Shown here one piece after another: positions 15,622 to 36,245 of a stretch of DNA of 37,709 nt. Source of the stretch: a bacterium (GTDB taxonomy: Bacteria; Margulisbacteria; Marinamargulisbacteria; JAHFDA01); the NCBI GenBank assembly GCA_023249225.1, contig JAHFDA010000027.1, forward strand, positions 1 to 37,709, written 5' to 3'. How positions within the stretch are numbered: position 1 is the first letter of the stretch; every line of letters starts with the position of its first letter. Position numbers and translations under genes: made by a program. The notes beneath the pieces were generated by a model that did not search any database, had not been told where the DNA came from, and was given only the letters and a program-made list of their open reading frames with translations.

Positions 15622-15665
15622 AAAAAAAAGGCGGCCCGAAGGCCGCCTTTTAAGATTTTCTGGAG
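15622..15665 (-). terminator. Strong intrinsic terminator, copy 1 of a duplicated 44-bp block
   Basis: On the minus strand a GGCGGCC stem, TTCG loop and GGCCGCC stem are followed by eight T residues, a near-ideal intrinsic terminator for the small antitoxin gene. The A/T flanks on both sides could make it bidirectional. The block from CTCCAG through the T tract is almost identical to 16116-16160. Confidence 0.85.
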
Positions 15666-16115: not shown

Positions 16116-16160
16116 AAAAAAAAAGGCGGCCCGAAGGCCGCCTTTTAAGATTTCCTGGAG
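16116..16160 (-). terminator. Strong intrinsic terminator, copy 2 of the duplicated block
   Basis: The same GGCGGCC/TTCG/GGCCGCC hairpin as at 15622-15665, followed on the minus strand by nine T residues. It lies directly behind the exported-protein gene (16171-16647) and is probably its native terminator. The stretch CTCCAG, A/G, AAATCTTAAAA before the stem is also shared with copy 1. Confidence 0.88.
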
Positions 16161-30259: not shown

Positions 30260-32419
30260 CTATTCGGCTTTTCCGGAAAACACCCGTTTACGAAATCTAA
30301 CGATGTGTTCGTCAGGCGACTCCCCAAAAATCAGGCTTACAGCCGCATCCGCATCGATATGCAGCGGGTGGCCGCGGAACCACAAGGCGCCGTATTCGTC
30401 GGCATGGGCGCTGTCGCGGCGACCAGCGAAAGCGGTGGGTCTTAAGCGCAGTGGCGCGGATTCGGTTGCTGAAATTTGTTTGGCGCCGGCGTCCATTTCA
30501 CCGCTTAAGAAGTTCTCCGGATCAACGGCAAGCGTTTTAAAATCGAATTCATGGTGGTGAAAAACGTCTCGCAACTGCATGCTTTGAATGCCCTGGTCTT
30601 CGTCAAAGATCACCAAAAAATTCAGAGTGTGGCCGCCGAATTCTTCAAATACCGTGCTGGGCAGCAATTCCCCCTGTGGGCCGCGCCGGGGACAGTATTT
30701 GCTTTCCATTTGGAACTTTACAAGTAGTGTTTCGTCGCCCACAAAAAGCTGTAGGCGGTTCATGCGGCGCACTTTTTCAAGACCGGCCTCGAAACCGGCT
30801 TCGTCGTTGCTGGCAAGCGCGTTGTAAGCCTGGCGCATCCAGCGTTGAATGAGCAGATTCTTCCAGATGTCGAACAGCATGTTTTTGAGGCCAGCGTGCG
30901 GGCGGCAGTCGGCGCGGCCAAAAATCAGGTCGGCAAACACGCTGGTGCGTGAATCCTTGCTGATCGCGGCGCCCGAGAACGCCTTCAGGCGCTGCATCAG
31001 CTCCTCAAAATTCCGGTGGAACGGCGATTCTATATCTTCCATGCGATCCGTCTCAAAACGCTTGCGGATGAGTGGGTTGATTAGGCTGTCAAAACGTTCA
31101 AACATTGCCAGCAGATCGTCCATCGAGTCGCAGGACTGTTCTTCCAAAAGGCCGAGGCGTTCAAGCAGGCCGCCGCCGATGGCAATGTCCAGACGATTGA
31201 TGCTGTGGTCATGGGCAATGCCGTTGTCGTCGAATTTAAAATTTCCGGAGATATAATCGGCGTTAAGGCCACGAAAGTAAAATAGTTTGCTTAAGATGGC
31301 CTGGGTCAAACGCAGGTGCGGCGCAGGTTCTTCCGCTATGGGGGCCGCGGTCTCCTCCGTGGCGGCGGAACGGTTCTGCAGGCGGTGAATGACCTTGTCC
31401 AGTTCCGCAGTGGCTTCGCCGGAGGTGTTACGTTGGTTCTGGAGCTTGGTAAGGTTGCTTAACGTGGAATCGATTTCCCAGTCATGCTGGGCCACTTCTA
31501 ACACCAGAGGCAGTATCGTTCGTATTTCACTTGTGTCGCGATTGATACAGGCCAGCTCCAACAGGGTGGCCAGACACCAGTAGTCCCGCGAATTTTTGCC
31601 GTTGGCCATTTCGGTCGAGGCATATACCATGCGTGCCAGTTTTTCAGCTTCGGCTGTGCGGCCGTTCCATAACAGCAGGTAGACGGCGTTGATGCCCGGG
31701 TAATATTCAAAGTTGACCAGGTAGCCGTTCAAATAGGCCTCGAACGCAGCGTTCCAGTAACGCTCGCGATGGTCGGCGACCCGCGCAAGATTTGGATCTT
31801 CCGGAAAAAATGCGCGGTAGCGGATTTGTAGTGCGGTATCTTCTGGAGCCTGGAGTAAAGCTTCTGCTGTTTCATAAAAAATCCGCAGCGCCTTGCCCGC
31901 GGCCCCATACGATTCGCCGTTGCCCAGCCCTTCGGTAATCAGCCTTTGGGAAGTTTCCAAACTTTCCTGCAAAACCGTGTGCGCGGTGTGCAGCAGGGCA
32001 GGGTTGGCCTTGCCTTGCTTGATCAAATTTTCGGCATACTTGTTAAGCGCTACCGCGTAAAATTCGCGGATGATGGCCGAGCGCCTAAAGGGCCGGTTGT
32101 TGCTCGACTGGTATAGCCGAATCATTTCGAAAAAATCTCCACGATCCTTAAGCGCGCGAAAGGCCATGCTCAATTCCGATGGGCTAAGGAGCCGGTAAAG
32201 TTCGTTTTCGAAAATAGCCTCGGTCAGATTTGCGCTGCGCGCCAAAAATTGCCTGAATGCCACGCCATGCCGAACCCAGTCATGAACCAGATCCGCATTT
32301 TCCGCCACCGTGTTATGCGCGCGTGTAAACAGCTCGGTCCATGGCGAATGGAAGCTGTCGTAATCGATGGGTGCCAACGTGGTGCAGGGTTGGGCGACCA
32401 GTTTTTGAGCGAGGTTCAT
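30260..32419 (-). CDS. 719-residue protein with TRAFs-binding/TPR-S (DUF4071)-like N-terminal half
   Basis: The region about 80-335 looks like the tetratricopeptide-type domain shared by bacterial DUF4071 proteins and ASK-type MAP3Ks: ALKDRGDFFEMIRLYQS, AVALNKYAENL, a repeated helical pattern, and YYPGINAVYLLLWNGRTAEA, then SRDYWCLATLLELACI. This match is from memory of the family pattern. A low-complexity linker (about 345-365) leads to a C-terminal region (370-719) I do not recognise, with LNFLVIFDEDQGIQS and ALWFRGHPLHID. There is no signal peptide or membrane helix, so it should be cytosolic. In other bacteria this domain sits with SLOG, TIR and similar nucleotide-linked effectors. It is 27 bp downstream of the 267-residue gene, probably one transcript. 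Confidence 0.7.
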   Translation of the reverse strand: MNLAQKLVAQPCTTLAPIDYDSFHSPWTELFTRAHNTVAENADLVHDWVRHGVAFRQFLARSANLTEAIFENELYRLLSPSELSMAFRALKDRGDFFEMIRLYQSSNNRPFRRSAIIREFYAVALNKYAENLIKQGKANPALLHTAHTVLQESLETSQRLITEGLGNGESYGAAGKALRIFYETAEALLQAPEDTALQIRYRAFFPEDPNLARVADHRERYWNAAFEAYLNGYLVNFEYYPGINAVYLLLWNGRTAEAEKLARMVYASTEMANGKNSRDYWCLATLLELACINRDTSEIRTILPLVLEVAQHDWEIDSTLSNLTKLQNQRNTSGEATAELDKVIHRLQNRSAATEETAAPIAEEPAPHLRLTQAILSKLFYFRGLNADYISGNFKFDDNGIAHDHSINRLDIAIGGGLLERLGLLEEQSCDSMDDLLAMFERFDSLINPLIRKRFETDRMEDIESPFHRNFEELMQRLKAFSGAAISKDSRTSVFADLIFGRADCRPHAGLKNMLFDIWKNLLIQRWMRQAYNALASNDEAGFEAGLEKVRRMNRLQLFVGDETLLVKFQMESKYCPRRGPQGELLPSTVFEEFGGHTLNFLVIFDEDQGIQSMQLRDVFHHHEFDFKTLAVDPENFLSGEMDAGAKQISATESAPLRLRPTAFAGRRDSAHADEYGALWFRGHPLHIDADAAVSLIFGESPDEHIVRFRKRVFSGKAE

Positions 32420-32446
32420 GGCACGATGACCGAAAATTGAGCGCGG

Positions 32447-33250
32447 CTATTTCGGTAGCGAGCTGACGTAAGCCTCGTAATCGCCGTAGGTTCTTTCAAA
32501 CCAGTCCTGTGCGATGGCGTGCACCGACGATACCTTGCCCTTTTTGGTGTCGATGATTACAAAGTCGTCGTCTTTGACGTTGATCTCTACGCCACTGGCG
32601 GTTTTAATGATCACGGTGCCGGTGTCTGCGGGAATTTGCAGCGCAAAACCAGGTAAAAGTTTGAAGCCGCTCTGCCATGTGACGGTGGCCGTGATGCCGT
32701 AAGCGCCATGGACGAAAGCAACGTCCGAAGCGTATTCGTTGTGCAGCTCTGTGTCGCCGTCCGGCGATATTATAAATTCATTGGCGTCATTGAAGTAACC
32801 GCGCACCGCCTGACCTTCGAGCTTATGGCCCTTGGGGTAGGTGAGGGAGTGAGGGTAGCGGAGAATGACAGAACCTTCTTTGATTTGGGCCACGCCGCCG
32901 CCATAGGTTTCTTTAATGGGGTTGCCGTCGGTGTCCACACCGGTGTAGGTGGTGAGCGTTGCGCCCGGCCGAAAACGCGCCTCGGCATGCCCGGCGTCTG
33001 CCAGCAACACATCGGTGGAAGTTTTTTTAATGACTTTTTGTACGTGGTTGTAAGCTGTGCCGGATTCAATTTTTAAAATGGCGAGTTGAATCAAAACTTC
33101 TAATTCAAGATTGCTTGAATATTTCAAACCATTGATCGAAATGTCGCTCAGGACTGATCTAAAGTCCAGGTCAACTATCGATGTTCGGTCGAAAGATTCC
33201 AGACGCTTTGCTGCAATGGCCTTATAAGCTAAAAAATTTGTCGTAAACAT
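32447..33250 (-). CDS. 267-residue protein of unknown function, hairpin-controlled start
   Basis: I do not recognise a family. The N-terminal third (about 1-85) is helical; the rest is beta-rich with many Gly, Thr and Asp residues. The C-terminal segment GTVIIKTASGVEINVKDDD, then DTKKG and FERTYGDYE faintly recalls small PGDYG-type phage and bacterial proteins, too weakly to name. No signal peptide or membrane helix. ATG 33250 is chosen because a perfect AAGGAGG lies 7 bases upstream; an upstream frame to 33289 would run through that ribosome site. The ribosome site is paired in an 11-bp hairpin, so translation is probably conditional. It is the first gene of the minus-strand pair with the 719-residue gene. 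Confidence 0.75.
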   Translation of the reverse strand: MFTTNFLAYKAIAAKRLESFDRTSIVDLDFRSVLSDISINGLKYSSNLELEVLIQLAILKIESGTAYNHVQKVIKKTSTDVLLADAGHAEARFRPGATLTTYTGVDTDGNPIKETYGGGVAQIKEGSVILRYPHSLTYPKGHKLEGQAVRGYFNDANEFIISPDGDTELHNEYASDVAFVHGAYGITATVTWQSGFKLLPGFALQIPADTGTVIIKTASGVEINVKDDDFVIIDTKKGKVSSVHAIAQDWFERTYGDYEAYVSSLPK

Positions 33251-33251
33251 T

Positions 33252-33285
33252 TTTTCCTCCTTGGGGTTGGTCGTAAGGAGGAAAA
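33252..33285 (-). promoter_or_regulatory. Perfect hairpin sequestering the Shine-Dalgarno of the 267-residue gene
   Basis: In the minus-strand transcript, UUUUCCUCCUU (33285 to 33275), a 12-base loop and AAGGAGGAAAA (33262 to 33252) form a perfect 11-bp stem. The 3' arm is the whole ribosome binding site, one base before the AUG. The structure should block initiation until opened by heat, a trans RNA, a ligand or a protein. The 5' arm alone also mimics the anti-Shine-Dalgarno of 16S rRNA. Confidence 0.75.
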
Positions 33286-33386
33286 GCATTTGTAATGCCG
33301 CTGCAGACCAGAAAGGGACCGAATTAAGATTTGCTTGTTACGACAACAAAAACGCGTTTAGCAGCACAGGTTTTTGTAGCAAAAAA

Positions 33387-33418
33387 GCGATGGCATTTTT
33401 GCGATGGTTTCTGGCATT
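33387..33418. promoter_or_regulatory. Direct repeats in the divergent intergenic region, possible operator
   Basis: GCGATGG occurs at 33387-33393 and 33401-33407 (14-bp period), and TGGCATT at 33391-33397 and 33412-33418. The cluster lies between the divergent 267-residue gene and the SLOG gene, where a shared regulator could bind. Direct sequence observation; function inferred. Confidence 0.3.
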
Positions 33419-33430
33419 AATTCTGTGAAA

Positions 33431-33458
33431 TTTACATCGACATATTTCGATATATTTA
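33431..33458 (+). promoter_or_regulatory. Weak candidate promoter of the SLOG-histidine kinase operon
   Basis: TTTACA (33431-33436), a 16-bp spacer and TATTTA (33453-33458) lie directly before ATG 33462. If used, the transcript would be leaderless, which fits the absence of a Shine-Dalgarno. Confidence 0.25.
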
Positions 33459-33461
33459 CAC

Positions 33462-36245
33462 ATGCTGGTTCTTCAGCAAAAACACCTTGCCTTCAGAGTC
33501 AGGCATGGGCCGGATACGCCAGTACTGCAATCATTTGCCAGTGAAATCGTGCGCGTTTGCGGAGTGCCTGCGGCGATGGCGCGCTTGCGGCAGTTTCAAA
33601 CATCCAAGCGCTTAACGGTTGCCTTGCTCGGTTCCACCAATCCGGAACTTTCGGCCAGCGTCTACGACGAAATCGAAGGACGGGTCATTGATCTCTTTAA
33701 CCGCTATGCGCCGCGCTTTGGTCTGGTGCTTCACGGCGGAACCATGAGCGGCGTGCCGCTATTTGCCCACCGCTATGCGCGTGAAAATCATATTGCCTCG
33801 GTCGGCATCACCGGCGTCGAGGGACTGGAATTTTTAGAACGGAATTTTCCGCGCGGTTTAAACGACGCGTATCCCGATCTTTCGGCTTTGGAAGCTTTGT
33901 TCGTGCACGGGCAAAGTTTTGCCCAGGCGGCACGCTCGCCGCTGTGGCAGGCGGCGGACATGGCCTTTGTGCTGGGCGGTAGCGATGGCACGGTGGCGGA
34001 AGCCGAAACTTTTCAGGCGGCGGGCAAGCCTGTGGTGGTCATCGACATCGACAAACTGCACCCGCACCGCTCCGCAGCAACGCGCCTCGGCCATGTGGAC
34101 TATCAAGGTTCAGTGGGTGGAATTTCTTTCAAGTTCCGGCGCATTGCCCTGCCGTCGGCGGCCGAAGCGTTTACGGATTATCAAGTGGACGCCCGTCATG
34201 TCGAGCTGGCGCAGCGGCTGGCCAACTTTGACTCGGCCATTAAAATTCTGGAAGCTGAAATTCAAAAATTAGGCGCCCGGGTGGTCCGGCTGACTGGCTC
34301 GTCTCTTACCAACTTCAAAGACCCGCGCAAATCTGAAACGCTCAAAGGCATTCTTGGCCGTATCTTTCAGGGCCTGGTCTATCCGGATCCTTCTACTTCC
34401 GAAAAACCGACGCCGTGGATCTTTTCTTCCGGCGGCACCGACTCGGGTGTGCCGTCGCTGGGCTACCAGGCGTGGAACGAGCTTTTTGACGCCGACTATC
34501 GCAAAAAATACGGTTTGCCCATGTGGGCCTTTGCGTCCGGCAAGGCCTTTGGCTGGGGCTTCGATTTTCCGGAGCACGCCCCCGCCGACGAAAACTTTGT
34601 CCAGCAATGGCTGCGCCAAACGGTGCTGCTAAGCAAGTCGGGCATTCCGGCCGGCGCGGAAAACGCCGTCGAGTTTGATCGCGTCCGCCACCAGTATCTC
34701 AATGCCCAGGGCCATGCCACCGCGCTGGCTTACCGCGTCAAGGTTCACAATATGGGCGAGGGCAATCACATTCTCGTCAATAATTCCCGCAACATTCCCC
34801 TGGATATGACGGCTGTGTTCGGCAGCGATTGGGGCCAGGAGTACAAACTCATCAATAAAATCGGCGGCCTGATGCTGGCATGTTCGGGCGGCGGCATTAC
34901 CAAAAAAGAAATTGTGGCGCACGTGGCCGCGCAACGCCCCCTGATTGTGATTCCGGGGTATAACGCTTACGGACATATGGCCAACGAACAAGGCGAGTTT
35001 CCCGAAATCCAGGGCGCCGTGGACTGGGCCTTGGCCAATGCCGAAGAAGCGTTTGGCAATAACGGCCACGTGGTGTTTGTTACCGAAGACGGCGTGAATT
35101 TTAAGCAGTGGTCCACGGGCATCGAATTCAGCATGGACGAGCTCAAGCAATTTCTTGAGGCCGACCAGCATGCCGACGCGGAATCCATCCAAACCCGATT
35201 TTCCACCAAGGGGTTTTTCAAATTCGAGGCAGGTTTTGCTTACAACAAAGCATTTCCATTTTCCGATCAAGTGCAGCTTCATTCAGGAACCACGGTTGAA
35301 ATGCAGGGGGGACGGAATTATTCCCAAGGCATCCCCGAACAATATCGGCTGTTGGTCACCGCCATCGAAGGGGATCCAATAAAGACGCTGCAGGCTTTTA
35401 ACGAACTCGACCTGGTCGAAAAAGCCATGAATCATTTTTATCACTCTAAATTTCGTTACCCCGTTCCGCCTTCGCGCCGCGTGCTCGAAAATTCCAATCT
35501 GCTCTTTTTGATTCGTGACCAACTTTCCAGTGGTCTTGATCTTTCCGGCGTGATTGGTTTTAAGTCGTTTCAAATTCCCAGCACGGCCGACCGCAGCGCC
35601 CTGCCCGGGCTGTTTATTTCGGACATCCGCCTGGATGAAGACTATCAAGACACCATGGTGGTGCGGGCAGCCATTATGGAAATGGCCGAAGCCATTATTC
35701 GCACGACGATTGCCAACCACGTGCTCAAGTCCCGTCTGCGCCATGCCAGCGTGGGGTCGGCCGAACTGCCGGAATCCATCGTCATGCTGACCCACACCAT
35801 TAATCCGCTGACGATTGAGCACTTGGCGCTGCTTTTGCCTGGTCTGCAAGCGCGTTTAACGGGCGAGGCCACCATGACGCTTAGCGATGCCGAATGGAGC
35901 GCGCTGCGCGTGATGGGTTACAAGCCCTTTGATGGCTGGGATCAGCGCGGTTATCGGGCGGACAGCCTGCTTTTCGAAAACATGTTGCCGCCCAACGAAA
36001 TTCCGCGCAATTTGGGTCGCTCGAACACGCCCTGGGTTTCGGAACTCATGCAAGCGCGCAACATTGGCAGCAACGCTCAAATTCTGGTGGGGGAGCTTTC
36101 GCTTAGACATCCGATGCTGGCGCGTTCGTGGCAGCGGACCGTCCGGCAAATCCGAGAGGCGGCCGATTTTTACGGAGCAGATTTGGATCGCGGGCGCTTA
36201 CATAACCTTGAAAACCGCGCTCCCGAGGAGGTACCGACAAAATGA
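33462..36245 (+). CDS. Tandem SLOG/LOG-type Rossmannoid protein, 927 residues
   Basis: Two copies of a SLOG-like nucleotide-binding fold are visible. Copy 1 (about 50-230) has VALLGST, the loop HGGTMSGVP (91-99) and FVLGGSDGTVAEAE (169-182), the GG-x-GT-x2-E signature of LOG/DprA relatives. Copy 2 (about 270-510) has VVRLTGSS, SSGGTDSGVP (322-331) and LACSGGGITKKE (472-483), where the signature is weakened, then LIVIPGY. The C-terminal 400 or so residues are helical and unrecognised. SLOG domains bind or cleave nucleotides, in bacteria and at the N-terminus of TRPM channels. No membrane segment, so cytosolic. The ATG lacks a Shine-Dalgarno. The stop overlaps a histidine kinase start (ATGA), so they are probably one signalling unit. 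Function unknown. Confidence 0.78.
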   Translation: MLVLQQKHLAFRVRHGPDTPVLQSFASEIVRVCGVPAAMARLRQFQTSKRLTVALLGSTNPELSASVYDEIEGRVIDLFNRYAPRFGLVLHGGTMSGVPLFAHRYARENHIASVGITGVEGLEFLERNFPRGLNDAYPDLSALEALFVHGQSFAQAARSPLWQAADMAFVLGGSDGTVAEAETFQAAGKPVVVIDIDKLHPHRSAATRLGHVDYQGSVGGISFKFRRIALPSAAEAFTDYQVDARHVELAQRLANFDSAIKILEAEIQKLGARVVRLTGSSLTNFKDPRKSETLKGILGRIFQGLVYPDPSTSEKPTPWIFSSGGTDSGVPSLGYQAWNELFDADYRKKYGLPMWAFASGKAFGWGFDFPEHAPADENFVQQWLRQTVLLSKSGIPAGAENAVEFDRVRHQYLNAQGHATALAYRVKVHNMGEGNHILVNNSRNIPLDMTAVFGSDWGQEYKLINKIGGLMLACSGGGITKKEIVAHVAAQRPLIVIPGYNAYGHMANEQGEFPEIQGAVDWALANAEEAFGNNGHVVFVTEDGVNFKQWSTGIEFSMDELKQFLEADQHADAESIQTRFSTKGFFKFEAGFAYNKAFPFSDQVQLHSGTTVEMQGGRNYSQGIPEQYRLLVTAIEGDPIKTLQAFNELDLVEKAMNHFYHSKFRYPVPPSRRVLENSNLLFLIRDQLSSGLDLSGVIGFKSFQIPSTADRSALPGLFISDIRLDEDYQDTMVVRAAIMEMAEAIIRTTIANHVLKSRLRHASVGSAELPESIVMLTHTINPLTIEHLALLLPGLQARLTGEATMTLSDAEWSALRVMGYKPFDGWDQRGYRADSLLFENMLPPNEIPRNLGRSNTPWVSELMQARNIGSNAQILVGELSLRHPMLARSWQRTVRQIREAADFYGADLDRGRLHNLENRAPEEVPTK

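Follow-up and report, generated by a model that had tools for sequence, protein, structure and literature searches.

A gene for a 267-aa protein has its Shine-Dalgarno sequence (SD) enclosed in a perfect 11-bp hairpin, which we consider, at a probability of about 0.5, to be a cis-acting translational lock that keeps the gene off by default. The gene lies at 32447–33250 on the minus strand of the window, the 37,709-nucleotide stretch of bacterial DNA that was analyzed. Read along this strand, the leader is ATGC TTTTCCTCCTT ACGACCAACCCC AAGGAGGAAAA AATG: a 5′ arm that serves as the anti-SD (TTTTCCTCCTT, 33285–33275) is complementary at 11 of 11 positions to a 3′ arm (AAGGAGGAAAA, 33262–33252), with a 12-nt loop between them (ACGACCAACCCC, 33274–33263). 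The 3′ arm contains the SD, AAGGAGG (33262–33256), which is followed after a 5-nt spacer by the ATG at 33250. A first-pass annotation had described a perfect 11-bp stem on the ribosome binding site, and its position, sequence, and pairing are all confirmed. Since the same 11-mer, AAGGAGGAAAA, also occurs 3 nt before the ATG of an EF-Tu-like ORF (MAREKFNRNKPH) on another contig of the genome, it appears to be a good SD for this organism.

As an isolated element, the hairpin has a computed free energy of −13.6 kcal/mol (z = −4.8), and none of 500 dinucleotide shuffles was equally stable. For the wider leader, z is −2.6 between −105 and +30 and merely −1.5 between −60 and +30. The minimum-energy fold keeps 10 of the 11 stem pairs, the outermost A-U pair being ceded to a small adjacent hairpin, GGCAUU-ACA-AAUGCU (33299–33285, minus strand), that competes for it. 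At 37°C, the SD is predicted to be unpaired 0.3% of the time (99.7% paired); shuffling the 60 nt upstream while keeping the SD unchanged hid the SD equally well in 5 of 1,000 shuffles. The stable leader fold is thus strongly predicted to sequester the SD by base pairing. The stem is also computed to exceed the SD/anti-SD duplex in stability (−13.6 versus −10.7 kcal/mol), the latter figure coming from a generic anti-SD: as the exact 16S 3′ end GGATCACCTCCTT has no match in the genome, the anti-SD of the organism was assumed rather than read. In leaders that have been tested experimentally, SD/anti-SD pairing that is perfect or stabilized shuts off translation (PMC3669281; PMC6733600).

If the transcript carries the complete leader, the 5′ arm, which is made before the SD, would pair with the SD upon its synthesis and block 30S binding. 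The default level of the 267-aa protein would then be very low, because the blocking arm precedes the SD and the stem is predicted to surpass the SD/anti-SD duplex in stability, and the strength of the SD would permit high output after the stem is opened. The likeliest opener would be another factor acting on the leader, such as a 30S subunit at the in-frame AUG at 33289, a protein, or an RNA. It is also possible that the hairpin is a static damper that has no opener. As SD-locking leaders are already well known, the lock would be novel only as a new instance; as a structural prediction of a familiar kind it is well supported, the evidence being structural and not regulatory.

The upstream AUG could itself provide the opener. 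The reading frame stays open as far as the ATG at 33289–33287, giving a 280-aa ORF in which the 13 additional codons (33251–33289, minus strand) read MLFLLTTNPKEEK. This ATG, a candidate start from the ORF listing, has no clear SD of its own and sits within the small hairpin in the predicted fold. The 5′ arm begins 4 nt past its first base, and a 30S footprint at this AUG would cover the arm. One version of this idea, which we regard as improbable, is a self-opening in-frame double start, where weak upstream initiation gates strong internal initiation of the same gene: a 30S subunit positioned 13 codons upstream would cover the anti-SD arm and thereby free the very strong SD of the internal AUG.

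Among 73 other genomes of the phylum, the 267-aa protein has one relative, which is 53% identical over residues 42–265 (L003/L004). In both genes, an in-frame ATG lies exactly 13 codons before the start codon, which may be a coincidence, and the SD of the relative is partly paired with sequence just before its own 13-codon-upstream AUG. The N terminus and leader of the relative are not homologous to those of the 267-aa gene. Its SD (AAAGGAGGATAAAATG) is strong, with a local 8-bp hairpin just upstream, and in the predicted fold this SD partly pairs with UUCUUCU, as much pairing being found in 93 of 1,000 shuffles. Comparison with relatives had been named at the outset as a check on the pairing; judged from this single relative, which has a nonhomologous leader and no perfect stem, the stem is not conserved across the protein family. 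The gene of the relative lies with two unknown genes (L004:6371–8787) inside a cell-division cluster, with ddl, ftsQ, and ftsZ-like genes on one side and a penicillin-binding protein gene and a mraW-like gene on the other (gene names assigned by eye from translations).

The absence of the stem from the only relative counts against a lock and is what would be expected if the inverted repeat arose by chance or is neutral, with no selected regulatory role, even though it might still lower translation. To place the hairpin in its genomic background, we used 379 kb of the same genome, window included, with genes from simple ORF calling. A recognizable SD precedes 146 of the 327 called genes; among these 146, the SD stem of the 267-aa gene is the longest at 11 bp, the runner-up having 7 bp and most having 0–5 bp. 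The pattern TTCCTCC-N4-30-GGAGGAA has a single site in 2.83 Mb, which is this hairpin. The hairpin over the SD is thus real and unusual, an outlier in its own genome.

Perfect repeats of at least 11 bp with a 4–30-nt loop number 13 in the 379-kb sample versus 2 in a Markov simulation, a density in this genome of about one perfect 11-bp repeat every 29 kb. At 3.4 × 10^−5 repeats per base and ∼6 registers per SD, we estimate the number of SD-covering cases expected by chance at ∼0.007 for the ∼35 genes of the window, ∼0.03 for the sample with its 146 SD genes, and roughly 0.2 genome-wide. On these figures, the hairpin is more than chance for the window alone, but for the whole genome an expectation of ∼0.2 is not negligible. 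Since terminator-like and repeat-element hairpins account for many of the other perfect repeats in the sample, the background that applies to a leader position is lower than these figures imply. Given the window-only expectation and the failure of all 500 shuffles to match the stability of the hairpin on the one hand, and the genome-wide expectation and the lone relative on the other, we consider a chance or neutral origin somewhat unlikely, though the likeliest of the alternatives to a lock.

Counting those with separate arms within 80 nt, the window as a whole has only two other inverted repeats that pair perfectly over 11 bp or more, for a total of three; both of the others are terminator-like. 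An identical 26-nt hairpin, AAAAGGCGGCCcgaaGGCCGCCTTTT, occurs at 15626–15651 and again at 16121–16146, ∼495 nt apart, and the two copies have the appearance of duplicated bidirectional terminators. Elsewhere in the genome, hairpins at L009:1738–1780 and L009:3246–3282, ∼1.5 kb apart, have a common core (TTGCGCACACT/AGTGTGCGCAA) and are perhaps a small repeat or mobile element. The hairpin of the 267-aa gene was rejected as an intrinsic terminator, as its loop is 12 nt long and neither arm is followed by a T-run, and as a repeated regulatory element, as both the leader and the repeat were found only once in the genome.

Viral contigs provided a second background. The exact 11-bp stem has one occurrence in 2.9 million viral contigs, and there too the 3′ arm serves as an SD: at L047:5349–5381, the identical SD-locking stem, with an 11-nt loop, lies 3 nt upstream of the ATG that begins a 108-aa ORF. 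A version with 9-bp arms is present in 29 viral contigs. Of 44 distinct strand-oriented sites, 8 coincide with the SD of an ORF that has 60 codons or more; two composition-matched control patterns give 6 of 46 (Fisher p = 0.57). Such SD-locking hairpins thus exist elsewhere, but their excess is not significant; a general enrichment of SD locks in viral contigs was rejected, and the result is in keeping with a chance origin and counts against a lock.

If the transcript instead begins within or after the 5′ arm, the repeat would lie outside the mRNA and might instead act, between promoter and gene, as an operator at which a local repressor binds the DNA. The repeat does lie in a 211-bp intergenic region between divergent genes, the usual setting for an operator, and the plus strand also carries AAGGAGGAAAA at the other arm of the repeat. 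However, an operator has no need for one arm to be a correctly spaced SD, no second site of this form is present in the genome, and no recognized regulator gene is found among the immediate neighbors. We consider this arrangement unlikely. No sigma-70-like promoter was found near the hairpin, which counts against the lock.

If the leader is transcribed whole, the hairpin could be part of a sensor, as the first-pass annotation had proposed in suggesting riboswitch-like or thermosensor control. An RNA thermometer of the ROSE or fourU type would, like this hairpin, hold the SD in an SD/anti-SD helix immediately 5′ of the start codon (PMC3669281). Those thermometers depend on mismatches or weak pairs for melting near 40°C (PMC3669281), whereas the stem here is perfect, with no mismatch or bulge, and is predicted to stay closed well above 60°C. 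Predicted SD exposure is 0.1% at 10°C, 0.4% at 42°C, and 1.4% at 65°C, and does not exceed 4% up to 80°C; a thermometer is unlikely because exposure barely changes from 10°C to 65°C. The 267-aa protein, moreover, matches no heat-shock family. In Pseudomonas ROSE-like thermometers, perfecting the SD/anti-SD pairing caused expression to be lost at both low and high temperature (PMC3669281). With SD exposure below 1.5% to 65°C and with this published perfect-pair mutant, thermosensor control is not supported, and we rejected it as highly improbable.

A ligand-sensing riboswitch would have the ∼110-nt leader form a three-way junction, with an alternative helix that frees the SD. The junction would consist of the SD hairpin, the small hairpin, and a putative outer helix of 9 bp formed by UUGUCGUAA (33346–33338) and UUACGACAA (33246–33238). 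This outer helix (33238–33346, minus strand) is perfect, is present in the minimum-energy fold, encloses both hairpins, and covers codons 2–5, and it matters only if the transcript begins upstream of 33346. The alternative helix might be supplied by GUCGUAA, an upstream sequence able to pair with the loop and the anti-SD arm. At −9.6 kcal/mol, however, this pairing falls short of the lock in stability, and 86 of 1,000 shuffles reach as much. Searched against Rfam, which includes ROSE, FourU, and aptamer models, the leader had no match at the gathering threshold and nothing meaningful at a relaxed one, leading us to reject the known riboswitch families; the leader, as noted, is also single-copy. 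Riboswitch-like control thus gained no positive evidence from the Rfam search or from the anti-anti-SD pairing, and we think it improbable.

Other known leaders have features in common with the proposed lock. Attenuators of the erm type are coupled leaders with an SD-sequestering structure. The iraD leader is likewise translationally coupled and sequesters its SD (PMC5574718). As in both, the SD of the 267-aa gene lies in a leader hairpin and an upstream start codon lies near the blocking arm; the iraD and erm-type leaders, however, have a separate short ORF, whereas here the candidate upstream start shares the frame of the gene and has no clear SD. Type I toxin mRNAs, such as hok and aapA1/aapA3, also contain anti-SD hairpins that sequester the SD (PMC6733600), and the likeness extends to an anti-SD that lies within a few nucleotides of the complementary SD, a hairpin trap, and a default block (PMC6733600). 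In those mRNAs, switching is long range or processing dependent and the hairpin is metastable, in contrast to the long, perfect, and stable stem described here. They also encode small toxins and have a known antisense RNA; the product here, a 267-aa protein and not a small peptide, does not fit a type I toxin-antitoxin system.

The 267-aa protein itself belongs to no recognized family. It has no notable match in Pfam, NCBIfam, PHROG, PADLOC, or PDB sequences, and no relative in the plasmids, phages, viral contigs, or GTDB contigs scanned. An AlphaFold2 model built from the two available sequences had a pLDDT of 35 and is too poor for use. Downstream by 27 nt and in the same direction is a gene for a 719-aa TPR/MAP3K_TRAF_bd protein (30260–32419, minus strand; PF13281, E = 2.4 × 10^−10), which also resembles TPR-S below the cut-off (PF20308, E = 3 × 10^−4). 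On the other side of the 211-bp intergenic region, a divergent gene encodes a 927-aa SLOG-type protein (33462–36245, plus strand), with matches to LSDAT_prok (E = 2.3 × 10^−5) and SLOG cluster4 (LDcluster4; E = 7 × 10^−4) that are both below curated cut-offs. Neither neighbor has relatives in the 73 other phylum genomes or in plasmids. Together, the SLOG-type gene, the 267-aa orphan, and the TPR/MAP3K_TRAF_bd gene (30260–36245) form a candidate conflict or defense locus.

Domains of the SLOG and TPR-S types are known from nucleotide-dependent conflict systems. Since the neighboring domains are of this conflict-system type, a tightly held gene is plausible here, and default-off control would be expected for a gene beside SLOG and TPR-S-like genes. 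If confirmed, the hairpin would be a clean, natural, and very tight translational lock, set next to conflict-type SLOG/TPR genes of an uncultured lineage, and it would pose the question of how a stem that is too stable for melting gets opened.
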